From an uncultured Oscillospiraceae bacterium (GTDB taxonomy: Bacteria; Bacillota; Clostridia; Oscillospirales; Oscillospiraceae): DNA of 64,000 nt. Positions 1 through 42,524 of the stretch are shown here, in pieces. The stretch spans positions 1 to 64,000 of the forward strand of contig CANQBC010000003.1 in NCBI GenBank assembly GCA_947589225.1. Reading direction: 5' to 3'. Each line of letters starts with the position of its first letter. The first letter of the stretch is position 1. The position numbers were made by a program, and so were the translations under genes. Under the pieces are notes generated by a model. The model worked only from the letters and a program-made list of their open reading frames with translations. It was not told the DNA's origin and made no database searches.

Positions 1-33
1 CCTTTATTCTCCTTGCTTCTATTTGGCTTTTGT

Positions 34-420
34 CTAAATAGCACTACTTTTGTGGGTTTTCAGATACGCCCTAGTATAGTAATTATCTACGGGCAACGTG
101 TATTTTATTTCCAAGGAGACCGGCTCAAGACATCTTTCATATTGAAAAATTTGACTGATACACTTAGCATCATAATACTGTCCAAGAATGGGAGATTTGG
201 GGATGTGAACAATCTCTTCGAAAACCCGTCTGAAAAGTTCACTTCTTATAGATGCCTGAAGCGAATCCACTTCATCCTCTTTTATGTGTTCTGATGCAAG
301 AAGCAGCTCTGCTTCAGATGCAGAATTGCATAAATGATTATTATTAATAAATTTAGCTAATTCCTGTACTTCATGCCGATATTCTTCTTGGCTTGAAAAT
401 CTATCACTATAAGATGTCAT
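34..420 (-). CDS. hypothetical protein of the AT-rich operon
   Basis: Unrecognised soluble protein of 128 residues from the ATG at 420; an upstream in-frame ATG at 453 would add 11 residues. It overlaps the 3' end of the decarboxylase gene by 14 bp, which indicates translational coupling and a shared function. It is acidic, largely helical by composition, with no signal peptide or membrane segment. A purine-rich AAGGAG sequence just after its stop (minus strand, about positions 10-20) looks like the ribosome binding site of a further operon gene outside the window. AT-rich like its neighbours and unlike the rest of the window, so probably horizontally acquired. Product unknown. Confidence 0.6.
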   Translation of the reverse strand: MTSYSDRFSSQEEYRHEVQELAKFINNNHLCNSASEAELLLASEHIKEDEVDSLQASIRSELFRRVFEEIVHIPKSPILGQYYDAKCISQIFQYERCLEPVSLEIKYTLPVDNYYTRAYLKTHKSSAI

Positions 421-1441
421 TACATAAACTCTCTTTCGGTATTTCATATGCATGAAGTGTACGAGCCATAGATGAAACGTAAGCTCCAGCTGGGAAAAAA
501 ACGAATTTCATCCCTTCCCTAGCCTCTTTAATCACTACTTCTTCACAAAATACGTCTCCCTCTAACAATGAATTGCCGCATATTCGGTATTTTATCCCCT
601 CTTGCGCTGAATTATTTAGCAGAATTGGAGTATGCCAATTAAACAAATTGAACTTAGACGAATCCAAGACTAACGTGTGAATGTCTTCTTTGATGTCAAC
701 TACAGATGTCACCAGAAAGCCATTATTTCCTATAAATGCTTGTCCGGGTTCGATCATAACCGAAATATTGGGATGCCTTTCCGAAAAATCGTTAATGATT
801 TTGCAATAATTTGTCCATTCCCCGTTAGCAATAAATTCATATGCACCCCCGCCAAAATCCACTTCCGTAAGCTCTTGTAAATACTGAGTTTCCAGCAAGG
901 ATTCCACATACTGAACCGAATCACGAAACGGATCCAAATCCTTATGATCAAAGTGATAATGTAATCTGCCGATTTTTACGTTCATTTTACTTAATAATTC
1001 CAGTTCTTTTTCTCCATAATTAGTTCCAAATCTGGAATTATCATTTGTATTTCGCACTCGAACTCCAATCGGAAGTCCTTCGACTTCTGATGAAAATTTC
1101 TGCACTTGATTTATTGAATCAAAATTTATATTTATTTTTGCTTTGAGTAATTTCTCAACATCAGGCTCGGTTAATCCTGGAATTGAGCAATATTTGCGCG
1201 TTTCCAGATCTTCAAATAGGCTCATCTCACTAATTGAAGAAAACTCCAGTCCATCTGCGTACTTCGAAATTGTTCGTACAACATCAGGGTTTCGATTTGC
1301 TTTCACAGAATACAGTATTTTAATTTGAGGATTCAAATATCCACGCATCTTGCGAAAGGCATCATATATTAACGTCTCGCTATAAACAATTGCAGGCGTA
1401 TCAGCACCATTAAGGTAATTTAATAATATATTATTCATCAT
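407..1441 (-). CDS. PLP-dependent fold-III decarboxylase (Orn/DAP decarboxylase family)
   Basis: A 344-residue alanine-racemase-fold decarboxylase. Near residue 47 the SVKAN motif supplies the Lys that binds pyridoxal phosphate; HYHF, FGGG and IEPGQA follow as the cofactor phosphate-binding segments, and CGNSLLEGD near residue 295 matches the Cys...Asp active-site motif of the ornithine/diaminopimelate/carboxynorspermidine decarboxylases. At 344 residues it is shorter than LysA (about 415) and nearer to carboxynorspermidine decarboxylases or decarboxylases of natural-product clusters. The ATG lies 6 bp after the permease stop. The substrate cannot be read from sequence. The context with two ABC-2 permeases suggests that it makes a small amine that is exported, but this is inference. 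Confidence 0.85.
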   Translation of the reverse strand: MMNNILLNYLNGADTPAIVYSETLIYDAFRKMRGYLNPQIKILYSVKANRNPDVVRTISKYADGLEFSSISEMSLFEDLETRKYCSIPGLTEPDVEKLLKAKININFDSINQVQKFSSEVEGLPIGVRVRNTNDNSRFGTNYGEKELELLSKMNVKIGRLHYHFDHKDLDPFRDSVQYVESLLETQYLQELTEVDFGGGAYEFIANGEWTNYCKIINDFSERHPNISVMIEPGQAFIGNNGFLVTSVVDIKEDIHTLVLDSSKFNLFNWHTPILLNNSAQEGIKYRICGNSLLEGDVFCEEVVIKEAREGMKFVFFPAGAYVSSMARTLHAYEIPKESLCNDIL

Positions 1442-1447
1442 TTTTAC

Positions 1448-2227
1448 TCATGTCCCCGTTCCGCCGTAATGCTTTAAACCTAAATACCACACTCTGGTCG
1501 ATAAAACGAAGAATACAATCGCCACCAAAGGAATTACCAGTAAAAGCTGCCAAGGTATTTGCCTAAATAACACCATTCCGGGAATAAATGCCACAATCCC
1601 AATCGGGAAAACCACTGTAAAGATTATTTGCAATATTTTTGGATAAATTGTCAACGGATACTTTGCAAACTCCTTTACTTCCATGGTAATATTTGCAACA
1701 TCTGCCTGTGCTATGGTAAAGAAGGAAAACGTTGATAAAATGATTGAAATTCCCAAATATATCAGACATCCCGATACAACAATGATTGGAAGCGCAAGAA
1801 AATAAATCGGAGGAATTCTCAATCTTATCCACGAATAGCATAATATTATTAACCCTGTTACTAATTCTCCCCACGAATCATCATCAAAGCTATCCATCAT
1901 AATCTGAAACAATGGTGATTCCGGTCTGACAAGGAAACGATCAAATTCGCCCCTTTGTATATAATATGGCAAAGTGATAGTATTAATAAAAAAGCAAGAC
2001 CACAGGGAGTACCCCACCAGGTTCAACCCATAAAAGAAAAGAAGCTGATTAAGCGACCAACCGTTGATGTCTTCAACAAAATCATAAATGAAAAACATCA
2101 TAAGTAATCCTGAAAGATATTCAACCAACACTCCCAGCACACCAAAAATAAAATCTTTATCATAAATCTCCAGTTCATCAAAATTAATCTTGAAAGATTT
2201 ACAAAAATACAGAAGCCTCTTCTTCAT
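1448..2227 (-). CDS. ABC-2 type transporter permease (COG3694-like)
   Basis: A 259-residue integral membrane protein with about six hydrophobic segments, an N-terminal basic stretch and a short Gly-rich C-terminus, matching the second permease of the paired ABC-2 systems (COG4587/COG3694, DUF990 family). It starts 4 bp after the first permease's stop with a strong GGGAGG binding site. It presumably dimerises with the neighbouring permease and needs an ATPase, which is not visible here. The cargo is unknown; location in an operon with a decarboxylase suggests a small-molecule product or self-protection export. Confidence 0.8.
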   Translation of the reverse strand: MKKRLLYFCKSFKINFDELEIYDKDFIFGVLGVLVEYLSGLLMMFFIYDFVEDINGWSLNQLLFFYGLNLVGYSLWSCFFINTITLPYYIQRGEFDRFLVRPESPLFQIMMDSFDDDSWGELVTGLIILCYSWIRLRIPPIYFLALPIIVVSGCLIYLGISIILSTFSFFTIAQADVANITMEVKEFAKYPLTIYPKILQIIFTVVFPIGIVAFIPGMVLFRQIPWQLLLVIPLVAIVFFVLSTRVWYLGLKHYGGTGT

Positions 2228-2231
2228 TATG

Positions 2232-3020
2232 TCAACCTCCCGAAATACTCAGTTTTTTCAACAAAACTTTCGAGGTGCAGGAATATATAACCAATAAAAG
2301 TACATTTACAATACAAATAATTGCCAACGCCTGCTTCCATTCACATTCTTTTCCCAGCAACACGTTTACCGGGATGTAATACATACTGGAGAATGGTAAG
2401 ATATCTAAAAATCCAATCAGCTTTTCCGGATAAAAACTTATAGGAAGCAATTCACCCGAAAGCAAAGCAATTATTGCTCCCGTTAACGTTCCAACGCCCC
2501 ATAGACTGGTAAAATATATACTTAGGACTCCAATATTCAACTCAAAGAGGAAAATAAAGAAATATGCCGAAAGTATAAATAAAATGCTTATTCCTATCCC
2601 GGGCAATGAGATATAAGGACTCGCAAAAACAAAAAACAAAACTATGTATGGTATTCCTCCCGATAGACAGGAATATAAATTCCTTCCTATAAAATTTCCT
2701 AACATTGTCCATTCCATACGAATCGGTTTTAACAAATATAAACCTATATCTCCTCGGATTACAAGCTGTGAATAAGTGTCAATGATTCCAAACGGATATA
2801 ACATAGACAATATACGCGTTAGCAAAATATAGGCCATCAATTCGTTAAACCGATAACCTTGGATAGAAGTTGCTCCGGAATAAATTGCTTTCCAAAGGAA
2901 ATAGTAAACCGTCAAAATTATTATGCTTGAAATAAACTTAACAACGGTTGCTGCAGAATATATTGAGTTTGCACGAAAACCTGCTCGAGATGATTTGTAT
3001 AGGTACAACAACTTCTGCAT
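2232..3020 (-). CDS. ABC-2 type transporter permease (COG4587-like)
   Basis: Polytopic permease (262 residues from the ATG at 3020, preferred because a GAGGGCG binding site lies just upstream; an alternative ATG is at 3035). Contains about six membrane spans and the conserved RGDIGLYLLKP segment typical of the first permease of COG4586/4587/3694 ABC exporters. In this family the ATPase gene normally precedes the two permeases. Here the upstream DNA shows only a short coding-like tail and then the phage cassette array, so the ATPase is missing, distant, or beyond position 1. AT-rich composition indicates a foreign origin. Confidence 0.8.
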   Translation of the reverse strand: MQKLLYLYKSSRAGFRANSIYSAATVVKFISSIIILTVYYFLWKAIYSGATSIQGYRFNELMAYILLTRILSMLYPFGIIDTYSQLVIRGDIGLYLLKPIRMEWTMLGNFIGRNLYSCLSGGIPYIVLFFVFASPYISLPGIGISILFILSAYFFIFLFELNIGVLSIYFTSLWGVGTLTGAIIALLSGELLPISFYPEKLIGFLDILPFSSMYYIPVNVLLGKECEWKQALAIICIVNVLLLVIYSCTSKVLLKKLSISGG

Positions 3021-3021
3021 C

Positions 3022-3069
3022 TCAATCGCCCTCATTAATACGTTTTTTTACCATCTCGGTGAAATTTGG
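3022..3069 (-). pseudogene. possible 3' remnant of the gene preceding the permeases
   Basis: The minus strand reads EPNFTEMVKKRINEGD then TGA, with the stop 1 bp before the permease ATG, as expected for an operon neighbour such as the missing ABC ATPase. The frame continues a little into the cassette, but base composition changes at about 3065-3072, where the phage-type GTTCGATT sequence begins. This is probably the truncated end of an AT-rich gene cut at the junction; the short length keeps confidence low. Confidence 0.35.
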
Positions 3070-3300
3070 TTCGATTTTCCGCCACAGATTCTCTTCGTGT
3101 TCAGTAGCTCTGGTAGCCGAGGGATTTTCTGTAGAGACAGCAGAGTAATGGAATTCTATTACCACGTCAATGGAGACCACGGCAATCTGACTTTCACTTG
3201 GACCGGCAATAGCGTCTCATGGTGGTCAAAGGAATCGGCAAACTTCCAATTGAACTCAGGGAATTCGGGAATGGTGTACCCATGGGTGGCCATCGGGTAA
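3070..3300 (+). CDS. tail-fibre C-terminal cassette D (plus orientation, no start)
   Basis: Open frame of 76 codons beginning with WFDFPPQILF at the GTTCGATT sequence and ending LTFTWTGNSVSWW ... MVYPWVAIG. This is the beta-strand-rich C-terminal domain seen at the ends of clostridial phage fibre or collar proteins: an FDFxP start, an internal T-G-N-S/T-V-S-W strand and a terminal aromatic-x-A-I-G. It has no ribosome binding site or start of its own; the frame upstream only continues antisense to the permease. It converges on cassette A with 7 bp between their stops. It is presumably expressed only when recombined behind a constant fibre gene. Confidence 0.6.
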   Translation, partial: FDFPPQILFVFSSSGSRGIFCRDSRVMEFYYHVNGDHGNLTFTWTGNSVSWWSKESANFQLNSGNSGMVYPWVAIG

Positions 3301-3307
3301 GGCGCAC

Positions 3308-3595
3308 TTATTCAATGGCTATCCAATAATATGTACTTTTCGATTGATTCAGCTGGCGGAATGCGCTGTCATCGTACCATAATACAGCTTTACCTCCGTC
3401 CTCTTTTTTACCCCGTCTCTTATCACTATAACCAAAGCCGGAGGGGTAATTGTCAAGGATAAAGGCGTCTGGAAGCACACAAGGATTTACTAAATAACGA
3501 AAATCATACGATGTGATAGTCCACCCTGCTCCTGACATTTGGGCATATGGGGTCTCGTACCCGTAAATCCAAACCAAGCGCGGCACAAAATCGAA
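3308..3595 (-). CDS. tail-fibre C-terminal cassette A (minus orientation)
   Basis: Ninety-five codons from FDFVPRLVWIYG to YYWIAIE. Same architecture as cassettes B, C and D: FDFxP at the head, and an aromatic-rich strand closing the domain after a Q-L-N motif. The head overlaps the stop region of cassette B (TAA, then ACGTTCGATTTTGTGCC). No ribosome binding site; a GTG falls within the head, but a separate start is unlikely. Interior sequence is unrelated to the other cassettes, as expected for alternative receptor-binding tips. Confidence 0.6.
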   Translation of the reverse strand, partial: FDFVPRLVWIYGYETPYAQMSGAGWTITSYDFRYLVNPCVLPDAFILDNYPSGFGYSDKRRGKKEDGGKAVLWYDDSAFRQLNQSKSTYYWIAIE

Positions 3596-3598
3596 CGT

Positions 3599-3835
3599 TT
3601 AGCCGATACCGATGAATTTGTACGTCCGGCCTTCTTCATTGCGCTGCTCGTCCGAACCATATGAGCTGTAGTAAGTCGCTTCAGACCCGGCATAGGAAAA
3701 ACAGATTGTACTGTAGTCACCAGGGGAATAAAGCTTTGTTGTGCCCCACGGGATGGGAAATGGAAACGTATCATATCTCGGGCGCACGTCTGCGTTATCT
3801 TCGCAGATTACGAAGAGCAATGGCACAGAATCGAA
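3599..3835 (-). CDS. tail-fibre C-terminal cassette B (minus orientation)
   Basis: Seventy-eight codons from FDSVPLLFVICEDN to YKFIGIG. The head sequence (CCGTTCGATTCTGTGCC) overlaps the TAA of cassette C, so cassettes are packed end to end with no spacer. An ATG at 3850 lies 15 bp before the head and falls inside cassette C's last codons, so it is probably accidental. The body (PRYDTFPFPIPWG) is unlike that of A, C and D, whereas head and tail are conserved. Confidence 0.6.
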   Translation of the reverse strand, partial: FDSVPLLFVICEDNADVRPRYDTFPFPIPWGTTKLYSPGDYSTICFSYAGSEATYYSSYGSDEQRNEEGRTYKFIGIG

Positions 3836-3839
3836 CGGT

Positions 3840-4163
3840 TTAACCAGCAATTAACCAGCGATATTTGACTCCCTCTTTGTTTAGCTGAGCAGAATTGCTA
3901 CTTGCATTATAAAACTCTACCGTCAGATGATCTTCTGATGCCCGCGCATAAGTCTCATAGACTACCCCATAGGCTATCCAGCCGGGCGATGCTTTCTCCC
4001 ATGCATCAGATACGAAAAATGCAGTATAACTGGTCGTAAGCGCGTCAGGCGCACCGATAATTGGAACCTGAGACAGCAAATCATTGTCCTCATTTCTGTG
4101 ATCCCCAAGAAGTATGCGGCCGTTTTCCTCGAACATGATGAGTAACCGCGGTGCGAAATCGAA
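3840..4163 (-). CDS. tail-fibre C-terminal cassette C (minus orientation)
   Basis: One hundred and seven codons from FDFAPRLLIMFEENG to KYRWLIAG; it carries the family's H-L-T-V-E-F-Y-N strand and a Q-L-N motif before the final aromatic strand. It is the cassette nearest the recombinase. Reading upstream on the minus strand the frame closes at a TGA within about 60 bp, so no constant fibre gene is joined to it in this arrangement. An ATG at 4136 is internal to the domain. Confidence 0.6.
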   Translation of the reverse strand, partial: FDFAPRLLIMFEENGRILLGDHRNEDNDLLSQVPIIGAPDALTTSYTAFFVSDAWEKASPGWIAYGVVYETYARASEDHLTVEFYNASSNSAQLNKEGVKYRWLIAG

Positions 4164-33652: not shown

Positions 33653-34690
33653 TTATTTTCCCTCCGGGGCGGTGATGCGGATATAGTCCGGCAGGGGCAG
33701 GGGGTCGGGCTGGGTGTAGCGCAGCAGGAGGGCGTTTCCGTTCTCCTCCGCCTCCTCAAAGCCCGCCAGCTTATAGGTGATATACATGATGCGGTTGTGC
33801 TCCGTCTCCAGAAACTCCGCCAGGAGGGGCTTATGGAGCCTGTGGGCGATGTGGGTGGCGCAGGCCAGAAGGACCGAGCCGATGCCCCTTGACATGACGC
33901 GGCAGGAGACGATGAGGAGCTTTACGCGCAACGCCTCTCCCCGCTCCAAAAGCAGAAGGCCCACCTTGCCGCTGTCGCCGTACTTGTCCCGGAGGCCGCA
34001 GATGAGGAAGATGTAGCCGGGGTCGCGTATCATGGACACCAGCTCGTCGTAGCCGTAGGTGTACCCCGTGGAGTTGAGCTGGTGGGTGCGGACGGTCAGC
34101 TCCTCCACCCGCTTGATGTCCTCCTCCGTCACCGGGGAGATGTCCAGCTCCATGCCCAGGGTGGCCAGAAAATCGTCGGCGCTGCCCTCAAAGGCTCTCT
34201 CCGCCTGTTGGCGGTCAAGATCCGCCCGGTACATCTCCCGCCGGTGGGCGGCGTCTGCGGTGATGAACGGAACCTGGAACTCGGGCAGGGCGATAAGCCC
34301 CGAAAGCGCCGCCCCGTCGTAGGCGTTGATCCTCGGCAGGACGTGCCTCACCTCGTCCCGCTCAAACGCCGAGTCGTCCACGAAAGCCGTGGCCTCCGGC
34401 TTGATATTGAGGGCGCCGAGGATGGCCGCCACCCCGGCGGACTTGGGATCCCAGGAGATCTGAGGGCAGAGGAAGTAGTCCTCAAGCCCCAGCTCCCGCA
34501 GCCGCGCAAGGGCCGGGCGTTCATCGTTTTTGCTGGCCACGGACTGGACGATCCCCCGCCGATCCAGCTCCAGGACGGCCTCCCGGGCGCCGGGGCGCAG
34601 GTCTTTCCCGCCGCCCTCGGCCAGAACGCCCTCCCACAGGGTGTTGTCCAGATCCCAAATGACAAGCTTTATCCGCACATTGTCCGCCAT
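33653..34690 (-). CDS. FkbH-like HAD-superfamily phosphatase / glyceryl loader
   Basis: A 345-residue FkbH-domain protein. The HAD part has DLDNTLWEG (nucleophile Asp-x-Asp), SVASKND and FVDDSAFERDEV; residues about 190-340 are a GNAT-like fold (RVEELTVRTHQLNSTG ... MSRGIGSVLL). FkbH proteins dephosphorylate 1,3-bisphosphoglycerate and load the glyceryl group on an acyl carrier protein. The ACP gene ends 1 bp before this ATG, which fits that job. Last gene of the operon. Confidence 0.88.
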   Translation of the reverse strand: MADNVRIKLVIWDLDNTLWEGVLAEGGGKDLRPGAREAVLELDRRGIVQSVASKNDERPALARLRELGLEDYFLCPQISWDPKSAGVAAILGALNIKPEATAFVDDSAFERDEVRHVLPRINAYDGAALSGLIALPEFQVPFITADAAHRREMYRADLDRQQAERAFEGSADDFLATLGMELDISPVTEEDIKRVEELTVRTHQLNSTGYTYGYDELVSMIRDPGYIFLICGLRDKYGDSGKVGLLLLERGEALRVKLLIVSCRVMSRGIGSVLLACATHIAHRLHKPLLAEFLETEHNRIMYITYKLAGFEEAEENGNALLLRYTQPDPLPLPDYIRITAPEGK

Positions 34691-34691
34691 G

Positions 34692-34934
34692 TCAGCCGTT
34701 CCCCCTGAGGTGCGACTCCACCAGGGCCGCGATGGCGTTGATGGAGTGGAAATTCTCGGTGGAGATCTCCCGCCGCCCCAGCTTCACGCCGAACTCCTTC
34801 TCCACGAACATCACGATCTGCAGGGCGAAGAGGGAGTTGATGTACCGGCTCTTGAGAAGCTCCGTGTCGTAGGTGAGGCCCTCCGCCTTCTTCTTGTCCA
34901 CGAAAAACTGATAGATCCGCTCTTTTGTGTCCAT
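34692..34934 (-). CDS. acyl carrier protein
   Basis: An 80-residue carrier. The phosphopantetheine site is the Ser in YINSLFALQIV (family motif D-S-L, here N-S-L), followed by the recognition helix FVEKEFGVKLGRREIS. Its partner enzymes are FkbH (downstream) and probably the MBOAT (upstream). Good GGAGG site. Asn in place of the usual Asp before the Ser is found in several stand-alone carriers. Confidence 0.88.
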   Translation of the reverse strand: MDTKERIYQFFVDKKKAEGLTYDTELLKSRYINSLFALQIVMFVEKEFGVKLGRREISTENFHSINAIAALVESHLRGNG

Positions 34935-34957
34935 ATCTGTTCCTCCGTAAGAATCCT

Positions 34958-36808
34958 TTATTGAAGGGCCGACAAAAGGCCCTCCAGCCGCTCAAGAAGC
35001 GCCGCCCCGTCAAGGCCGGGATCCACGCTGACGCGCTTCAGGGCGAATAGCGTCTGGGGGATGCCCCTGACGACCACGTTGACGCCGTAGTCCGTGGTGA
35101 CCGTGGCCCTGACGCCCAGCCCTTGCAATACCACCTCGGACAGCCTGTCGTACAGCCCGTTGGGGTAGGTGAACACGTCGCTCTCCACGGGCAGGGCGGC
35201 GGTGATCTGCTCCGAGGAGCGCTCAAAGTCGGCGGTCAGCGCGGCCACATAATCGCTCTCGCTCTCGCCCTCCAGGCGCAAAACGCCCTTCCGGCAGTCC
35301 TCCCCGTCCCGCTCCGGGACCTGGTGCATATCGTAGGAGTGGCTCTTGATCTCCAGCACGCCCTTCTCCACCCAAGGGGCGGCGTCCTCTAAGGTGAAAT
35401 GGGGGGTCATGGGAACGCCCGTCTCCTTATAGGTGTCCTTGCCCACCGAGACCCCGATGACGGAGATAGCGGCGCTCATGCCGTATTGTTTAAGGAGCGG
35501 GGCGGCGATGTCCAGGTTATTCTGATACCCATCGTCAATGGTGATCAGCACCGGCCTTTCCGGCAGCGTCCCGCCGCTGTATACGTAGTCGAAAAGGTCG
35601 TCGTAGGTGATGGCGGTGAACCCCGCGTCCCGCAGGGCGGCCAGGTGAGACGAGAACTCCTCCTGCGTCACCGCGTCGCTGCCGTCCCGCGTGGTCGTAA
35701 AGGAGTGGTACATCAAAATGGGCAGGGGGGCCGTGTTGTCCTGGGGCGGCTCCTCCAGGGCGGCGTAGGTCCGGGCCATCCGGGCCTCCACGTTCTCCGG
35801 CGTTGTCAGGTTCCCGAAGTCCTCCGGCATCCAGACAGCCGGATCTTTGAAGATATACGCCAGGGCCATATCCCCCACGCAGTTGCGGAAGTGGTCCACG
35901 TCATAGAAGTAGCGGATGTCCCCGGTGACGCAGTTGGCGCCCCAGAAGTCGTAAAAGGGCGTTATCTCCGCCACGCCCCGCCAAAAGTCCTCCATCTTCT
36001 CCCGGTCGTACCGGGCAAGGTCGCCGGTGTAGAGGGGCACGCCCACCACCGTGAGCCTGACGCCGCTGTCGTGGCAGATCCTGGCGATCTGGGCGATGGC
36101 GTCCAGCGCGCCATCCAGATGGGGCATGGAGGACGGGGCCTGCTCATAGTAGTTGTCCTCAAACGCCAGGTACTCCGCCAGCTCCCCGATGCGGGTGCTG
36201 TCCCGAACCTCTTTGTTGTACGCCCCATTCTCCGCCTTGTACACCGCGTCGGCGGTGACCAGGATCCCACGGGAGGCGTAGGCCCGCAGCTTGCCCAGGC
36301 CGTAGCCGGGGTTGGCGAAGAGGTATTTTGCGTAGAAGGCGGGGGCGAAGGAGCCGTCCACCTTGCAGTGCATATTCCCCTTGATGGGGTCGTCCTCGGT
36401 GTCAAAAAGCTCCGCGTCCTGGGGGTCCACCGCCAGGACGATGTTTTTTATCCGGTAATTGTCCACGATATACCGCGTCAGGGCCAGCTCGTCCGTCAGA
36501 TCCCCGCCGTACCAGGTCATGTTGTAGAAGCTGGCGTCCATATAGATGTTCAGCTTCTCCGGCGACAGGGAGGAGCACTTGGAACTCCCGATGACGTAGG
36601 AGTCGTATTTCTCAAAGTTTCTGTCCAGATACGCGATCTTCGCCACGCGGGGGTTCATGGTCATGTCATAGGCGTACCAGTCCATGAGCCTGTCCCCAAA
36701 GACGCCGAAGGGGTCCGTGAGCACATTGAAAACCGCCGCGCAGCAGGCGAAAAGGACGACCGCCGTTAGAAAGACGGCGAGCCACTTCTTTATGGACAAG
36801 CTTCTCAC
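34958..36808 (-). CDS. fusion of SGNH-type domain and polysaccharide deacetylase
   Basis: A 616-residue surface protein. An N-terminal membrane anchor (9-28) precedes an SGNH/DltD-like domain with GSSKCSSL (nucleophile Ser near 75) and DVDHFRN (Asp-x-x-His near 305). Residues about 365-610 are a NodB deacetylase: LPILMYHSF, LITIDDGYQNN (metal Asp pair) and IKSHSYDMH (metal His pair). It likely works outside the cell with the MBOAT on a polymer, one half handling acyl transfer or removal and the other N- or O-deacetylation. GTG start, 1 bp from the MBOAT stop. The combination is unusual. Confidence 0.82.
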   Translation of the reverse strand: MRSLSIKKWLAVFLTAVVLFACCAAVFNVLTDPFGVFGDRLMDWYAYDMTMNPRVAKIAYLDRNFEKYDSYVIGSSKCSSLSPEKLNIYMDASFYNMTWYGGDLTDELALTRYIVDNYRIKNIVLAVDPQDAELFDTEDDPIKGNMHCKVDGSFAPAFYAKYLFANPGYGLGKLRAYASRGILVTADAVYKAENGAYNKEVRDSTRIGELAEYLAFEDNYYEQAPSSMPHLDGALDAIAQIARICHDSGVRLTVVGVPLYTGDLARYDREKMEDFWRGVAEITPFYDFWGANCVTGDIRYFYDVDHFRNCVGDMALAYIFKDPAVWMPEDFGNLTTPENVEARMARTYAALEEPPQDNTAPLPILMYHSFTTTRDGSDAVTQEEFSSHLAALRDAGFTAITYDDLFDYVYSGGTLPERPVLITIDDGYQNNLDIAAPLLKQYGMSAAISVIGVSVGKDTYKETGVPMTPHFTLEDAAPWVEKGVLEIKSHSYDMHQVPERDGEDCRKGVLRLEGESESDYVAALTADFERSSEQITAALPVESDVFTYPNGLYDRLSEVVLQGLGVRATVTTDYGVNVVVRGIPQTLFALKRVSVDPGLDGAALLERLEGLLSALQ

Positions 36809-36809
36809 C

Positions 36810-38234
36810 TCAGAAATTGAAATAGAGGAAGGTGGAGACCCTTCTCATGCACAGGAGCGACAGCGCCAGAAGCGCCGCGCTGAACACGGCCTCCCGCCAG
36901 CCGTACCGCTCCCGCTCCGACAGGGCGTTGGAGTTGGGGAAGGCAAAGCATATGACGGCGCCCGCCGCCATGGTCAGGGTCACCGAAAGATTCTCCTTCA
37001 CAAACGTAAGCGCCGAGCGCAGGAACGTGCGCGCGTGCAGGAGTTCTCGCACGTCAAAGAGCTTGCGGTACACCATAACGGCCTGGGTGAGGCCCGTGCA
37101 GTCGAAGAGCACCCGCACCAAAGCCCCCGCAAGGAAGGTCAGCGCCACCGCCAGCCACGCCGGGAGGGGCTTTCGATCCTTCAGGGCGCGGATGTTCGCC
37201 AGCGTCACCAGCGCGCCGTTGACAAGGCCCCAGAGGATGTAGTGCCACGCCGCGCCGTGCCAGACGCCGGACACAAGGAAGGTGGCCATGGTGGCGAATA
37301 CAAGCTTCCCCACCCCGTCCCCGAAGCCGAAGAGGTTCTGAAACACGGTCTCGTTGAAAAAGCGGGAGATGGTGATGTTCCACCTGCGCCAGAAGTCCCC
37401 GAAATCCCGCGCCTTGTAGGGGGAGTCGAAGTTGATGGGCAGCTCCACGCCGAAAAAGCACCCCAGCCCCCGCGCCATGTCGATGTAGCCGGAGAAGTCA
37501 AAGTAGTAGGCGAAGGTGTAGGCCAGCACCGCCATCCAGGAGTGGAAAAGCCCCGCCCCGGCCGCCCCGCCGCCGGTGTAGTAGGCGGAGGCGAAGGCGA
37601 TGAGCGTGTCGGCCAGCAGGATCTTCTTGGCGCACCCCATGGAGAAGAGCATCACGCCCCGGGGGACGAGGGCGGCGTCGTAATCAAGGAGCGTCCGCCC
37701 CTCGATGTAGGGCATCACCTCGTCGTGGCGCACCACAGGCCCCACGATGAGCTGGGGGAAGAAGGTGACGAACACGGAGTAGTCTAAAAGCCCCGGCCTC
37801 CCCCGCTCCCCCCGGTAGAAGCTCACCGTGAAGGCCAGGATCTGGAAGGTGAAGAAGGAGATGCCGATGGGGAGGATCAGCTTCAGCGCGCCGATATGCG
37901 TACCGAAGAGGAGATTTACGTTGGCAATGGTGAAGTTGAGGTATTTAAACCAAAAGAGAAGCCCCAGGTTCCACGCCACGGCCAGGGTGAGCCAGGCCCG
38001 CCGGGCGGCCTTCTTTCGGCTTTTGTCCATGAGTAGGATGAGCAGGTAATTGAGAAGCAGCGTCAAAACGAAGCCCGCCAGAAAGTCCGGCTGCCCCAGC
38101 CCGTAAAAGACCAGGGAGGCCGCGGTGAGCCACAGCTTTACAAGCCGCTCCCGGCCCGTCCTCCTCAGCAGGTGAAAGCCCAGGAGCGTCACCGGGAGGA
38201 ATAGAAATATGAAGGAATAGGATGAAAAGATCAT
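36810..38234 (-). CDS. MBOAT O-acyltransferase (DltB/AlgI-like)
   Basis: A 474-residue polytopic enzyme with ten or more spans; SGVWHGAAWHYILWG near residue 325 holds the catalytic His, and FFPQLIVGPVVRHDEV and SGYIDMARG are the other MBOAT family blocks. MBOATs of this type pass acyl groups through the membrane to an extracellular acceptor. With an ACP and FkbH in the operon, the donor may be glyceryl- or another acyl-ACP. Start at 38234 follows GGGAGAG. Confidence 0.92.
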   Translation of the reverse strand: MIFSSYSFIFLFLPVTLLGFHLLRRTGRERLVKLWLTAASLVFYGLGQPDFLAGFVLTLLLNYLLILLMDKSRKKAARRAWLTLAVAWNLGLLFWFKYLNFTIANVNLLFGTHIGALKLILPIGISFFTFQILAFTVSFYRGERGRPGLLDYSVFVTFFPQLIVGPVVRHDEVMPYIEGRTLLDYDAALVPRGVMLFSMGCAKKILLADTLIAFASAYYTGGGAAGAGLFHSWMAVLAYTFAYYFDFSGYIDMARGLGCFFGVELPINFDSPYKARDFGDFWRRWNITISRFFNETVFQNLFGFGDGVGKLVFATMATFLVSGVWHGAAWHYILWGLVNGALVTLANIRALKDRKPLPAWLAVALTFLAGALVRVLFDCTGLTQAVMVYRKLFDVRELLHARTFLRSALTFVKENLSVTLTMAAGAVICFAFPNSNALSERERYGWREAVFSAALLALSLLCMRRVSTFLYFNF

Positions 38235-38325
38235 GGTCTCTCCCGGCGGGCGCGATTGCAAAGCCCGTCTCTATGTGATATACTTTCAGAAAAACATCGA
38301 AAAAACATGGAAAGGGGGCGGGACT

Positions 38326-38877
38326 GTGCTGGTCCTGTGGCGGCGGCTTGAAGAGGCATGTCCCGGCGGGCAGGCGCTTCACGAGGCCGGCCGCGCCCTT
38401 TTGCGGCGCGGGCTTGAGATCGCGGGCTTTGCCGGGGCGGAAAGGCGCGTCGTCCTCTCCCCCTCCGGCAAGCCGACTATCCCCGGCGGGCCGGAGTTCT
38501 CTATCTCCCACGCCGGAAACGCGGCGGTGTGCGCCGTTGACGCCGGCCCCGTGGGGATCGACATCGAGCCGGTGACGGACATCCCGGAGGGGCTTCTTGA
38601 CTCCCTCGCCCCCTCCGAACGGGCCTATGTGCTGGCGCGGCAGGGGCACGAGGCGCTGCGGTTTTTCCGCCTCTGGACCATGAAAGAGAGTATCGTCAAG
38701 GCCCGTGGGGAGGGCCTGGGCGGGCTTTTGGAGCTTCGGAGCCTTGTGACGGACTCACAGACGCTTGTCCGTCAGGTGGACGGGCTGACCGTCCGGCCCC
38801 TCTCGCTGCCCATCCCCGGCACTTGCGCCGCGTTGTGTTCGGAGACGGACTCGCCCCCGGACATCATCGGATTCTGA
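38326..38877 (+). CDS. 4'-phosphopantetheinyl transferase (Sfp type)
   Basis: A 183-residue enzyme from the GTG at 38326 (GGGGGCGGG upstream). FSISHAGN, VGIDIEPV (Mg-binding Asp/Glu) and FFRLWTMKESIVKARGEGL (Trp-x-x-Lys-Glu) are the family motifs. It converts apo-ACP to holo-ACP and is encoded divergently from the MBOAT-ACP operon, so the locus carries its own carrier activation. Its stop directly abuts the stop of the GT-C-like gene. Confidence 0.9.
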   Translation: MLVLWRRLEEACPGGQALHEAGRALLRRGLEIAGFAGAERRVVLSPSGKPTIPGGPEFSISHAGNAAVCAVDAGPVGIDIEPVTDIPEGLLDSLAPSERAYVLARQGHEALRFFRLWTMKESIVKARGEGLGGLLELRSLVTDSQTLVRQVDGLTVRPLSLPIPGTCAALCSETDSPPDIIGF

Positions 38878-40749
38878 CTACCGCACCGGGATCAGCGCGC
38901 CCACATCGCTGCCGGGGAGGACGGCCCGCAGATTCTCCAGCGCCGCGCCGGACCCGTCCTGGACGTAGATCCAGCCGGCCATAGTGGTCTCCACGGCCCA
39001 GTCTATGTCCTCCCGCGTGGTGGCCTCGCCGTAGCTCATCGTCTCCACCGACATGGGGGAGGCCAGGAACGTGACGATGGGGTTATACTCCGCGCTGTTG
39101 AGGAGCACCAGCACCCGGCGGTTCTCACCGTCCAGGGGGAGGCCCTCCAACGTTGTCAGCATATCCTCATAGCTTTGAGCAAATTCCTCCCGGCGCTCCA
39201 CGCGCTGGGGATTCAGGCTGTCGGCGGCGGGGAAGAGGCAGTTGACCGCCAGCTTCCACCCGGCGCACAGGACGATGAGCGCGGCCATTACTCCGGGAAG
39301 GAAAGCCCCCGCCCGAAGCCCTTTGGCGCCCGAAAGATCCAGTCTCCGGAAGCACATATGAAAGGCCCACATCAGGAGCCCTATATTCATCGGCCCGCCG
39401 TAGCGGGTCATCTGCGTGAGCATATTGGCGCTCTCAAGGTATTGAGTCTCGTTGTAAAATATGGTCAGGTGGCTCACCAGCAGCACGCCGAGGGTGAGGA
39501 CGTACATACCGGCGGCGAAGGTGAAAAACCGCACGGCCTTTCCCTTTTCAAGCCACCCGGCGCGGCGGAACGCCAGCAAAAGCGCGAAGATCAGGAGTAT
39601 GGCCAGCGCCGGCGTCAGATCCACCCCGGCCGTCCACTCCCGGTGGACGGGCTCGGCCACAAACGCCCGGAGCCAGGAGCGTATAAGTCCCACCGTGCGC
39701 TCGTCCCTGAAAAACGCCCCGGAGAGCACGGCCCTGAAAAGCGAGCCCACCGTCGGCGCGATAGCCCGGGTTAGATACGTCGTCCGATCCATCACCCGGC
39801 AGTAAAGCCACCAGCTTCCCGCGGCGGCGGCCGGCGGGAGCAGGAGCGCCCCGGCGCGGCCCATATTGCCCCGGAAGCCCCGGTAAATGAGAAACAGCGC
39901 CACAGCGTAGGCGCACCACAAAAGCCCCACCGACTTGGTGAGGGCAAGCGCGGAGAGGAACACCGCGCACTTTGCCGTGCGCCAGCCGTTCCACTCCCGC
40001 TCCCCGGTGATCTCCATGAGCAGGCACCCGAAGAGCATCCCCATCACGGGGTCGACATAGACGGAGCGGTACCAGGAGCTGTCCGCCACGCCGGGCAGGG
40101 CGAAGAGCAGCAGGGCGCCGGCGGCGCCGACGGCAATCTTTTGCCGGAGCTTTTCGGCTTTGAACCCGTCGAGGGCGGAAAAGAGCAGTGTGCCGCTATA
40201 TAGGAAGTACCCGCTGAATATGAGCCCCTCGTCAAAAGAACTTCTCAGGCGCAGGAAAAGCCAGATCTCAAGCTGGGTGAAGGGCGGGTAGTCTCCGAAG
40301 CCGGCGGATACATTGCTGGCGTATCCGGCAAAGCCGTCCCGGAAATAGAGGCTCTTGATGTCCGGCCCCCAGAAGTTGTAGGCGTCCCACTCCAAAATGA
40401 GCCGCCGGTGCGCAAGCAGGGCGATCACGGCCAGCGCCACGGCGTTGATCCACACCTGGGGCTCCCGCAGGGGCGCGGCGGCCCACCTGAGCGTGTTCTT
40501 TATCCCCTCCCGGCGCATTTTCACAAGGAGCATCGCCAGAAGGGCGGCGAGACACGCGGCGGCGATCCAGACGATCAGAGAAAGCCGCCCCAGAAAGGCA
40601 AGGCCGTAGAGGACGATCCCCGCGCCGCACACGGCCACGGGCGCCGTCCTGACAAGGCTCTCCCCGTACCGCAGGGACAGGGCCAGGGCTATGGCGGCGA
40701 TGGAAACGGCGCTTATCACGGCGGCCACGGCTTCACCCCCAGGTATCAC
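38878..40749 (-). CDS. polytopic membrane protein, GT-C-like glycosyltransferase
   Basis: A 623-residue protein with about twelve to thirteen spans and a C-terminal soluble segment of about 110 residues (from LNPQRVERREEFAQS). The first extracytoplasmic loops carry EWDAYNFWGPDIKSLYFRDG and GDYPPFTQLEIW, the acidic loop pattern of GT-C enzymes that use polyprenyl-phosphate sugars. GTG start overlaps the stop of the GT2-GtrA gene (GTGA). It is the likely transferase of the Und-P-sugar made by that neighbour. Confidence 0.7.
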   Translation of the reverse strand: MIPGGEAVAAVISAVSIAAIALALSLRYGESLVRTAPVAVCGAGIVLYGLAFLGRLSLIVWIAAACLAALLAMLLVKMRREGIKNTLRWAAAPLREPQVWINAVALAVIALLAHRRLILEWDAYNFWGPDIKSLYFRDGFAGYASNVSAGFGDYPPFTQLEIWLFLRLRSSFDEGLIFSGYFLYSGTLLFSALDGFKAEKLRQKIAVGAAGALLLFALPGVADSSWYRSVYVDPVMGMLFGCLLMEITGEREWNGWRTAKCAVFLSALALTKSVGLLWCAYAVALFLIYRGFRGNMGRAGALLLPPAAAAGSWWLYCRVMDRTTYLTRAIAPTVGSLFRAVLSGAFFRDERTVGLIRSWLRAFVAEPVHREWTAGVDLTPALAILLIFALLLAFRRAGWLEKGKAVRFFTFAAGMYVLTLGVLLVSHLTIFYNETQYLESANMLTQMTRYGGPMNIGLLMWAFHMCFRRLDLSGAKGLRAGAFLPGVMAALIVLCAGWKLAVNCLFPAADSLNPQRVERREEFAQSYEDMLTTLEGLPLDGENRRVLVLLNSAEYNPIVTFLASPMSVETMSYGEATTREDIDWAVETTMAGWIYVQDGSGAALENLRAVLPGSDVGALIPVR

Positions 40750-41804
40750 TCAGTCGCGGGTCTTTTAAAGACCCACTTGCGCTCCACAACGTAATTGACA
40801 ACGAAAAGCACGCCGTCCACCACGATCTTGATGAGCACGGTCGGAATCGGCAGGCGGCTCAGGGCCGCCACGGTTCCCCCGCTCACCAGCATCACCGCCA
40901 GGAAGAGGCACAGATACCGAAGCGACTGCGCCCCGGTGTCCCCGCGGCTTCTGAAGGTGACGTGCTTGTTGAGGAAGAAATTCAGCGCCCCGGACAGGAG
41001 CCTTGCGGCCACCGTGGCGGCGAACACCCACCGCTCCCCCTCCGGGAAGAGGGCGCTCAAAAGCCAGAAAGCCCCAAGGTCGGCCAGCGACGAGGCCACG
41101 GCCACCAGCGCGAAGGTCAGGGGCCTGCGGTAGACAAGGTAGGAGTCCCGCACCACGCGGAAATGGGAGGCTTTGTTGTCGTTTAAGTAGATGGTCTCGA
41201 TGGGTTCCATGATCAGGGGTACCTTGGCCTCCGCCGCGTCCAGGAGGAAGTTCATCTCGTACTCGTACCGATCCCCCTCGCACTGGGCGGCCATTTTGAA
41301 AAGGGCCGCCGGGATGCCGCGAAGCCCCGTCTGGGTGTCGCCGCATCGGATGCCCGTCATCAGCTTGAAAACAAGGGAGGTGATCCTGTTCCCGGCTCTG
41401 GACTTCCAGGGAACCGTCTCCCCGTCGAAGTCCCGAACCCCCAAGACGAGGCTTTCCGGGTTTTCGTACGTCAGCTCCGCCACCCGCAGAACGTCCCTGG
41501 GGGCGTGCTGTCCGTCGGCGTCGGCGGTGACCACCCCGGCGCAGCCGGGGACGTTCTCCCCAATCCAGGCAATGCCCGTTTTCAGCGCCGCGCCCTTGCC
41601 CCGGTTTTGGGGGTGGCGGCAGACGTGGACGCCCATGGCCTCCACGCGGTCAAAGACCTCCCGGCACGCATCATCGCTGCCGTCGTCCACCACCACGACG
41701 CGGCCCGCCCCGCTCTCCAAAAGCCCGGAGACGGTCCTGACCAGCAGCTCGTCCGGCTGATAGGCCGGTATCAGCACCGCGACCTGTTTGACGGCGTTTT
41801 CCAA
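40746..41804 (-). CDS. bifunctional GT2 glycosyltransferase - GtrA flippase fusion
   Basis: A 352-residue protein from a TTG at 41804 (GGGAGG 8 bp upstream); longer frames run into repeats. The N-terminal 225 residues form a GT2 polyprenol-phosphate glycosyltransferase (LIPAYQPDE, VVDDGSDD, DADGQHAP, GDTQTGLRG). The C-terminal 120 residues are a four-span GtrA domain (FLNKHVTFRSRG, ERKWVFKR). It would make Und-P-sugar and move it across the membrane for the GT-C protein. GtrA and GtrB are usually separate proteins. Confidence 0.9.
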   Translation of the reverse strand: MENAVKQVAVLIPAYQPDELLVRTVSGLLESGAGRVVVVDDGSDDACREVFDRVEAMGVHVCRHPQNRGKGAALKTGIAWIGENVPGCAGVVTADADGQHAPRDVLRVAELTYENPESLVLGVRDFDGETVPWKSRAGNRITSLVFKLMTGIRCGDTQTGLRGIPAALFKMAAQCEGDRYEYEMNFLLDAAEAKVPLIMEPIETIYLNDNKASHFRVVRDSYLVYRRPLTFALVAVASSLADLGAFWLLSALFPEGERWVFAATVAARLLSGALNFFLNKHVTFRSRGDTGAQSLRYLCLFLAVMLVSGGTVAALSRLPIPTVLIKIVVDGVLFVVNYVVERKWVFKRPATE

Positions 41805-42524
41805 AAACCACACCTCCCGCGCTGAACGCGCTTCCTTACCGTACACGCCCCGCAGCGCGGGGACGGGGCAATTTAAAATCAAATAGGATAACTGTGCGTA
41901 CACACATGGATACATGGTATATTCGCCATGTTTCGCGGTTCCGCCCACCGGGCGGGAGCGAAACGGCATGAAATCAAATATAATATCCGCGTTGCGGATA
42001 TTATACCATACCCGCAAAGCGGGGATGGTATATTCGCCGTGTTTTTCGGTTTCCGGCGAAGCCGGGGAGAAAAACGGCTAAAAATTAAATATAATAACCG
42101 CCCATGCGGTTATTATACCATACCCGCAAAGCGGGGATGGTATATTCGCCGTGTTTTTCGGTTTCCGGCGAAGCCGGGGAGAAAAACGGCTAAAAATTAA
42201 ATATAATAACCGCCCATGCGGTTATTATACCATACCCGCAAAGCGGGGATGGTATATTCGCCATGTTTTTCGGTTCCCGGCGTCAGCCGGGGAGAAAAAC
42301 GGATTGAAATCGAATATAATATCCGAGCCACCGGATATTATACCACTTCAGTGGCTTTTTTGTCAATCTTTACACCGAAGATGTACTTCGCGTTCTCGCC
42401 GTGCATTTTTTCCGGAAATACCTTGATTTTTTTGAAACCGGGGTGTAAAATGACAAGGTTGTGAATAGATTTGTCAGTGGAGACATGCACAATTGTCTCA
42501 CTTTATTGAGAGGAACGATCTCCT
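41805..42524. other. 720-bp divergent intergenic region with repeat array
   Basis: Between the minus-strand GT2-GtrA gene and the plus-strand flippase gene. Mostly the repeat array at 41914-42346; outside it no gene. TATAAT-like sequences occur in every repeat unit. Confidence 0.7.
41914..42346. repeat. four tandem 111-112-bp repeats with internal hairpins
   Basis: Units begin ATGGTATATTCGCC at 41914, 42025, 42137 and 42249. The second and third are identical over 112 bp; the first and fourth are diverged. Each contains three paired elements: a TTTTTCGG...CCGGGGAGAAAAA stem, an A/T-rich stem (ATAATAACCGC ATG GCGGTTATTAT type) and CCCGCAAAGCGGG. Changes in the outer units keep the A/T stem paired (ATAATATCCG/CGGATATTAT). 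Confidence 0.9.

Follow-up and report, generated by a model that had tools for sequence, protein, structure and literature searches.

Organization of the locus

The window analysed here is a stretch of 64,000 nucleotides from contig CANQBC010000003.1 of an uncultured Oscillospiraceae bacterium (assembly GCA_947589225.1), whose genome comprises 2.41 Mb in 72 contigs and is 97% complete. Its nearest named relatives are metagenome-assembled genomes (MAGs), mostly titled uncultured Oscillospiraceae. The window carries a minus-strand run of four genes, hereafter the cassette, encoding an MBOAT protein, an SGNH-NodB fusion, an acyl carrier protein (ACP) and an FkbH protein. A phosphopantetheinyl transferase (PPTase) gene is divergent from this run, and genes for a GT2-GtrA fusion and a large membrane protein lie upstream (Table 1). 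By eye, the flanks consist of rpoB/rpoC-like genes on one side and a SpoVB/MurJ-like gene on the other.

A first-pass annotation of this DNA had listed FkbH, ACP, SGNH-NodB, MBOAT and PPTase genes without a synthase. All five genes were confirmed by profile matches and a structure model, and no synthase was found among the neighbours, covering the open reading frames (ORFs) between 26 and 46 kb by eye and ten of them by Pfam. A nonribosomal peptide synthetase (NRPS) of the same genome sits on another contig, C37 (L053), where the protein of ~2,250 aa is adjoined by a PPTase and a MatE-HATPase fusion. The whole genome contains one TIGR01686 match (the window FkbH), three PF01648 genes and three MBOATs; around the two further MBOATs, stretches of 12 and 16 kb contained no AMP-ligase match, at an E-value threshold of 1e-8 that could miss a carrier.

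Table 1. Coordinates of the cassette genes and their neighbours in the window
Feature	Positions	Strand	Evidence
FkbH, short form, 345 aa	33653..34690	-	TIGR01686 above cut-off
Acyl carrier protein, 80 aa	34692..34934	-	Ser34 in INSLFALQ (codon 34833-34835); alignment
Membrane-anchored SGNH-NodB fusion, 616 aa	34958..36808	-	Pfam (deacetylase); structure model (SGNH)
MBOAT, 474 aa from MIFSSY	36810..38234	-	PF03062 8.7e-29; TIGR04091; DltB alignment
PPTase, Sfp/AcpT-type	38326..38877	+	PF01648 3.8e-14; divergent from MBOAT operon
Membrane protein, GT-C glycosyltransferase fold	38878..40749	-	
GT2 glycosyltransferase-GtrA fusion	40746..42017	-	PF00535 + PF04138

The FkbH protein and the carrier protein

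The FkbH protein scored 231.1 bits on TIGR01686, against a cut-off of 146.65. It contains Asp13/Asp15, Lys83, Asp105/Asp106 and Ser262-Cys263-Arg264 (Cys263 codon 33902-33904), and these residues, including the HAD aspartates and the cysteine, are kept in 33/33 cassette FkbHs and 7/7 NRPS-type FkbHs. We take Cys263 to be the cysteine that receives the glyceryl group, and the window FkbH is predicted to act as a glyceryl loader. Ser34 of the carrier is likewise kept in 33/33 cassette ACPs and 6/6 NRPS-type ACPs, which share an (N)SLFA motif. The carrier gave weak NCBIfam carrier-protein matches (best 1.1e-7), and an NCBIfam label of ornithine-lipid-type ACP was rejected at 32 bits versus a cut-off of 130.

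A search of 391 genomes of the class with the FkbH profile yielded 13 matches of at least 400 bits. Four lie in the cassette (own genome, G604, G457 and G347, the last with a subtilase-like gene between fusion and ACP), seven lie beside an FkbI-type acyl-CoA dehydrogenase and two at contig ends. Six of the seven FkbI-neighboured genes are also accompanied by FkbK-type 3HCDH, ACP and NRPS-type adenylation matches, the L190 cluster having been checked with Pfam. Among matches above 190 bits, three more (239-268 bits) belong to other clusters. In a quick tree, three rows of the cassette type fell closer to the NRPS group (support 80), a mixing of the two types that was rejected; in the careful FkbH tree a 100/100 branch split all 33 cassette rows from the seven NRPS-type rows, with the root unplaced.

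Outside the cassette, the most similar FkbH/ACP pairs that were found have FkbI/FkbK-type dehydrogenases and NRPS-type genes as neighbours. Pairs in this setting are taken to produce glyceryl-ACP, and methoxymalonyl pathways go on to oxidise and methylate it (as described in PMC7489565). A search for FkbI/FkbK-like genes found none in the window and none in 33 of the 34 cassette loci (534 kb in total, on many short contigs); the remaining locus, L096, has matches at 35-36% identity, located downstream of FkbH at a distance of 3-5 kb. Because the nearest pairs are of the glyceryl-ACP type and the oxidising enzymes were not found in 33/34 loci, plain glyceryl appears from sequence comparison to be the likeliest transferred group.

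The MBOAT protein and the SGNH-NodB fusion

The MBOAT, for which a start at 38234 is more likely than one at 38261, is homologous to solved DltB and scored 137.5 bits on TIGR04091, short of the DltB equivalog cut-off of 375. His326 (in WHG) and Tyr471 are kept in 29/29 FkbH-group MBOATs. Tyr471 (codon 36822-36824) lies in the tail FLYFNF; the group form FLYF(N/Q)F, with Phe469, Tyr471 and Phe474 kept in all 29, fits FXYXXF, the acyl-shuttle motif of PatA and DltX as given in PMC12148441. Eight MBOATs from related loci (L129, L131, L137, L138, L143, L144, L150 and L155; seven of the AMP-ligase group described below and one unassigned) have Gln for the WHG His and a tail of the form YVYE(N/S)(I/V), not FXYXXF, so that both changes co-occur.

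The first position of the catalytic dyad is occupied by Asn286 (codon 37377-37379), which aligns with the His of the RWH of DltB. It is Asn in 29/29 FkbH-group MBOATs, and His in 32/32 AMP-ligase-group and 8/8 carrier-less MBOATs. A second reading gave Asn in fourteen cassette loci (L040-L042, L044-L051, L201-L203), which overlap partly with the 80 fusion loci described below, and His in all other MBOATs in which the pattern was found, including one own-genome paralogue; the pattern was not found in L055, L058, L059, L068 and L206. In cLPCAT3, such an Asn was proposed to activate the donor carbonyl (PMC10213974, in its account of that enzyme). From the split by group and this proposal we infer that position 286 tracks the acyl source and possibly touches the donor.

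The fusion protein consists of a membrane anchor (residues 3-37), an SGNH domain (53-321) and a NodB deacetylase domain (356-615). Pfam detects the deacetylase part alone, both here and in 13/13 aligned relatives, and the SGNH part was confirmed from the structure model; a sequence search of solved structures with the SGNH part gave no match. DltD is among the best structure matches of this domain, and the longest SGNH alignments among the rows listed are those of DltD entries 6o93, 6pfx and 3bma (240-243 residues). Ser76, Asp303 and His306, which by analogy would be the catalytic residues, are kept in 32/32 FkbH-group rows. PplD and PgaB are among the best structure matches of the NodB domain, which combines the NodB fold with an Asp/His metal site as in CE4/PgaB-type deacetylases; Asp425, Asp426, His490 and His495 are kept in the same 32/32 rows.

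Recurrence of the cassette and alternative feeds of one exporter

In a family survey, TIGR01686 matches occurred in 31/300 genomes, and 33 FkbH loci were fetched, excluding the partial matches G170:C40 and G175. In twelve loci from nine genera, our own included, the FkbH shares at least 45% identity with that of the window, and all twelve show the order MBOAT, SGNH-NodB, ACP, FkbH. The cassette is retained across these nine genera down to ~50% identity, with one FkbH (G151) split over two frames. The other 21 FkbHs are 24-37% identical and mostly ~600 aa long; eleven have an MBOAT match in the fetched stretch, and one locus, L068, has an SGNH-NodB gene with a broken MBOAT.

When the SGNH-NodB alignment was run against a genome collection of 84,980 species, 129 relatives came back, and the analysis used the best 80; these loci overlap with those of the family survey. 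By content, 31 loci carry FkbH and ACP, 32 an AMP-ligase, and 17 fall elsewhere. Since the gene order recurs in 12/12 family loci and FkbH/ACP appears at 31/80 loci chosen by the fusion only, the association exceeds chance. The MBOAT lies 3-189 bases before the fusion in 29/31 FkbH loci; of the other two, L090 is truncated where its contig ends, and L118 has its MBOAT at a distance of 7 kb. An MBOAT match is on the same contig in 77/80 loci, mostly just before the fusion. No AMP-ligase match (E up to 0.01) was obtained in the 31 FkbH-group loci.

In the 32 AMP-ligase loci the ligase is upstream, accompanied by ACP in 31 and by GNAT in 22. At L140 (3044-8994), ligase, GNAT, ACP and DltB-family MBOAT were confirmed by Pfam and NCBIfam, and the ligase is amino-acid-adenylating, nearest DltA but under the DltA cut-off. 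Such AMP-ligase-(GNAT)-ACP-MBOAT-SGNH-NodB operons would represent an additional surface acylation system of the carrier type in Clostridia. Eight of the 17 other loci are carrier-less (five Paenibacillus, one Planococcus, L148 and L151), in which the MBOAT immediately precedes the fusion and neither FkbH nor ACP nor ligase gave a match (L148 shows only 3.7 kb upstream of the fusion). L113 has GNAT, ACP and MBOAT, its ligase not being found at the expected on-contig place; the last eight are cut short or ambiguous, L125 with a long FkbH among them.

In the fusion tree the carrier-less group forms one branch, the FkbH label needs two changes, and all 33 AMP rows (L113 counted in) lie behind one starred branch together with seven of the eight unassigned rows. 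The MBOAT tree agrees broadly; in both runs there were warnings about long branches that meet and about some rows with an unusual composition. The distances of the four cassette proteins correlate (Mantel r 0.87-0.95, 28 rows, 0/2000 permutations), which fits joint inheritance but also a common species history.

Other FkbH arrangements were also encountered. Long FkbHs (~600 aa) lie near MBOATs with shuttle-motif-type tails in L058, L059, L060, L062 and L069, that of L058 with a near-threshold FkbH_N match; these loci are a second FkbH-MBOAT association. In L194, L199 and L200, divergent short FkbHs adjoin a small ACP-like ORF, with no synthase seen; a BpsA_C-domain protein lies beside FkbH in L194 and L199, and a GNAT in L199. 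In L050, FkbH is followed downstream by two genes that were first regarded by size as glycosyltransferases and proved to be MoeA-like.

Comparison with known systems

The cassette resembles Dlt in its carrier protein, its DltB-family MBOAT, its SGNH domain with DltD among the best structure matches, and its shuttle tyrosine motif. However, it has FkbH where Dlt has the adenylating DltA, its shuttle motif is fused to the MBOAT whereas Dlt has a separate DltX, its SGNH domain is fused to a NodB deacetylase, its MBOAT has Asn and not His at the first dyad position, and the predicted cargo is a neutral glyceryl instead of D-alanyl. Because no adenylating enzyme was found at the cassette and the MBOAT scores below the DltB cut-off, the system is not Dlt by membership; it is Dlt-like in logic.

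With PatAB, AlgIJX and Wss/Ccs it shares a two-protein MBOAT-SGNH exporter and a C-terminal FXYXXF on the MBOAT, and the tyrosine of this motif, the MBOAT catalytic His and the SGNH Ser/Asp/His of this acyltransferase type are all present. In the pathways covered by PMC12148441, MBOAT/SGNH systems apart from Dlt have no carrier protein and use acyl-CoA, Dlt alone using a carrier-held adenylated amino acid; unlike those non-Dlt pathways, the cassette encodes a carrier. It shares the FkbH family, a stand-alone ACP, the catalytic residues and an NSLFA-type motif with methoxymalonyl-ACP and tetronate pathways, as in NRPS-type pairs, but no FkbI/FkbK genes or synthase were detected at the locus, and an exporter is the predicted destination of its acyl-ACP. 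The AMP-ligase operons (32/80 loci) share with the cassette a homologous, NodB-fused exporter and, in 31/32, a carrier; there, however, the carrier is presumably loaded by a DltA-like ligase, the loading genes are upstream whereas those of the cassette are downstream, the MBOAT tails are mostly FIYxx(F/Y), and the first dyad position is His.

No link of FkbH to MBOAT, lipoteichoic acid (LTA) or surface acylation appeared among the open-licence PMC papers listed. What is described for cyanobacterial NRPS clusters is an FkbH domain that loads glycerate on the NRPS, not glycerate export (PMC13122637, PMC10143770); the MBOAT of such a cluster acylates a hexose according to PMC13122637, a role worded differently in PMC10143770. 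The cassette combines a Dlt-like logic with a polyketide-type loader, an MBOAT-borne shuttle motif and an SGNH-fused deacetylase.

Proposed mechanism and alternative explanations

Gene content and order, intact catalytic residues, folds, a shared exporter and a swapped acyl source are what the locus and its relatives display, and sequence and structure models lend good support to a Dlt-like skeleton, because a carrier, a shuttle-tyrosine MBOAT and a DltD-like SGNH domain are present and, in relatives, a DltA-like ligase and ACP accompany this exporter. The first-pass annotation had suggested a Dlt-like route from ACP to a surface polymer; this reading is supported in part, in that its skeleton stands, the glyceryl group is likely from sequence, and the acceptor is a prediction. 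We infer the chemical steps, the acyl group and the acceptor as follows. A PPTase would convert the ACP to holo-ACP, after which, as in its family, the FkbH cysteine would take the glyceryl of glycolytic 1,3-bisphosphoglycerate, with removal of the 3-phosphate, to give glyceryl-S-ACP. By comparison with PatA and DltX, the MBOAT would then accept the carrier-borne glyceryl at the inner face of the membrane and, through the Asn286/His326 dyad, pass it to its own Tyr471. Ser76 of the SGNH domain would receive the group and esterify a surface polymer, from whose hexosamines the fused NodB domain may strip N-acetyl groups, while GT2-GtrA and the GT-C protein probably attach a side sugar to the same polymer. 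A lead to the acceptor comes from the LTA of C. difficile, which seems to carry glyceric acid and ~15% glucosamine at one position, although the glycerate is written there as glycosidically linked (both as reported in PMC10642750). On balance, we consider it probable that the cassette is a carrier-dependent, adenylation-free MBOAT-SGNH surface acylation system loaded with glyceryl.

Several observations weigh against this proposal. GDSL lipases are as good a match to the SGNH domain as DltD is; the ACP has no Pfam match, PF00550 having missed it; and a short FkbH is not diagnostic and was rejected as sole marker of the system, given four cassette members and seven FkbI-neighboured ones among the 13 strong matches. 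The PPTase, which the first-pass annotation had called dedicated, is not conserved among related loci: it was found in 11/31 FkbH+ACP loci and not found in 10/31 with at least 5 kb before the MBOAT, the other ten being cut shorter or lacking an MBOAT on the contig. It lies beside 7/12 family cassettes, and the genome has two further PF01648 genes, one beside the NRPS on another contig, so that the term fails in general and is lineage-specific at best. Concerning the acceptor, three PF00884 proteins of the genome are weakly like LtaS, and no PF04464 match was found in the genome. Furthermore, most relatives are MAGs on short contigs, and several of the 80 loci are near-copies. Finally, the carrier-less eight adjoin FkbH-type systems in both exporter trees, and therefore such an MBOAT could in principle take acyl-CoA.

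This last point bears on the idea that MBOAT and SGNH-NodB O-acetylate from acetyl-CoA like PatAB, with FkbH and ACP serving an unlinked product such as that of the NRPS. Carrier-less pairs in 8/80 loci and the NRPS on C37 speak for it; nevertheless, the identical four-gene order in 12/12 family loci, the Asn286 that accompanies FkbH, the sister systems pairing the same exporter with an adenylating enzyme and ACP, and the correlated distances of the four proteins make it quite unlikely. A simple change of cargo, the exporter working as described with a glyceryl that enzymes encoded at other places in the genome have modified further, or with phosphoglyceryl, is unlikely but the most credible of the alternatives: glyceryl-ACP is so modified in methoxymalonyl pathways (PMC7489565) and the enzymes could act from a distance, yet the window and 33/34 cassette loci yielded no FkbI/FkbK-like gene, and the matches in L096 are distant.

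We regard it as very unlikely that NodB provides the main activity and SGNH is a de-O-acylase trimming the polymer, a reading to which the lipase matches of the SGNH domain are relevant, since an MBOAT match shares the contig in 77/80 loci, the FkbH group carries the shuttle motif, and DltD entries give the longest SGNH alignments among those listed. It is hardly credible that FkbH and ACP, despite being kin of NRPS-type pairs, are a functionless methoxymalonyl-type remnant lying by chance beside a wall-modifying operon: their catalytic residues are intact in 33/33 FkbHs and 33/33 ACPs, and the cassette persists in nine genera, only the G151 FkbH being split.

Neighbouring genes

The PPTase probably starts at the GTG at 38326, in an ORF open from 38233, as judged by eye and from homologue starts. 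The GT-C-fold protein, with which a sequence search of solved structures gave no match, is probably part of the same surface-polymer neighbourhood. The GT2-GtrA fusion, whose N-terminal ~65 aa are probably not translated, would make and flip a polyprenyl-phosphate sugar; GT-A, GtrA and GT-C components are all present, forming the set of a multi-component transmembrane glycosylation system, and the GT2 and GT-C pair lies beside the cassette in 7/12 family loci. A tandem array (41914-42345; 112-bp unit, 3.9 copies) with 14-pair hairpins at two places (42231-42200 and 42119-42088) lies between a perfect TTGACA-18-TATAAT (42366-42337, minus strand) and the probable GT2-GtrA start. Positions 1-4000 of the window have a G+C content of 0.37-0.41, versus ~0.6 across most of the window.

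Implications

We tentatively put forward, at close to even chances, that the cassette represents a third kind of MBOAT-SGNH exporter, in which the acyl phosphate of 1,3-bisphosphoglycerate drives D-glyceryl esterification, the same protein de-N-acetylates, and the Asn-His dyad is tuned to glyceryl. If so, surface decoration would be tied directly to glycolytic flux. A surface D-glycerate ester dependent on named genes, and an Asn286 that follows the acyl source, are the predictions that arise; the wall-polymer decoration of these bacteria becomes testable through four genes. Loading modules would appear to be naturally exchanged at one exporter, and FkbH beside ACP need not signal a natural-product cluster. 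In many gut and rumen Clostridia, a polyketide-type loader appears to be coupled to the MBOAT-SGNH export principle.

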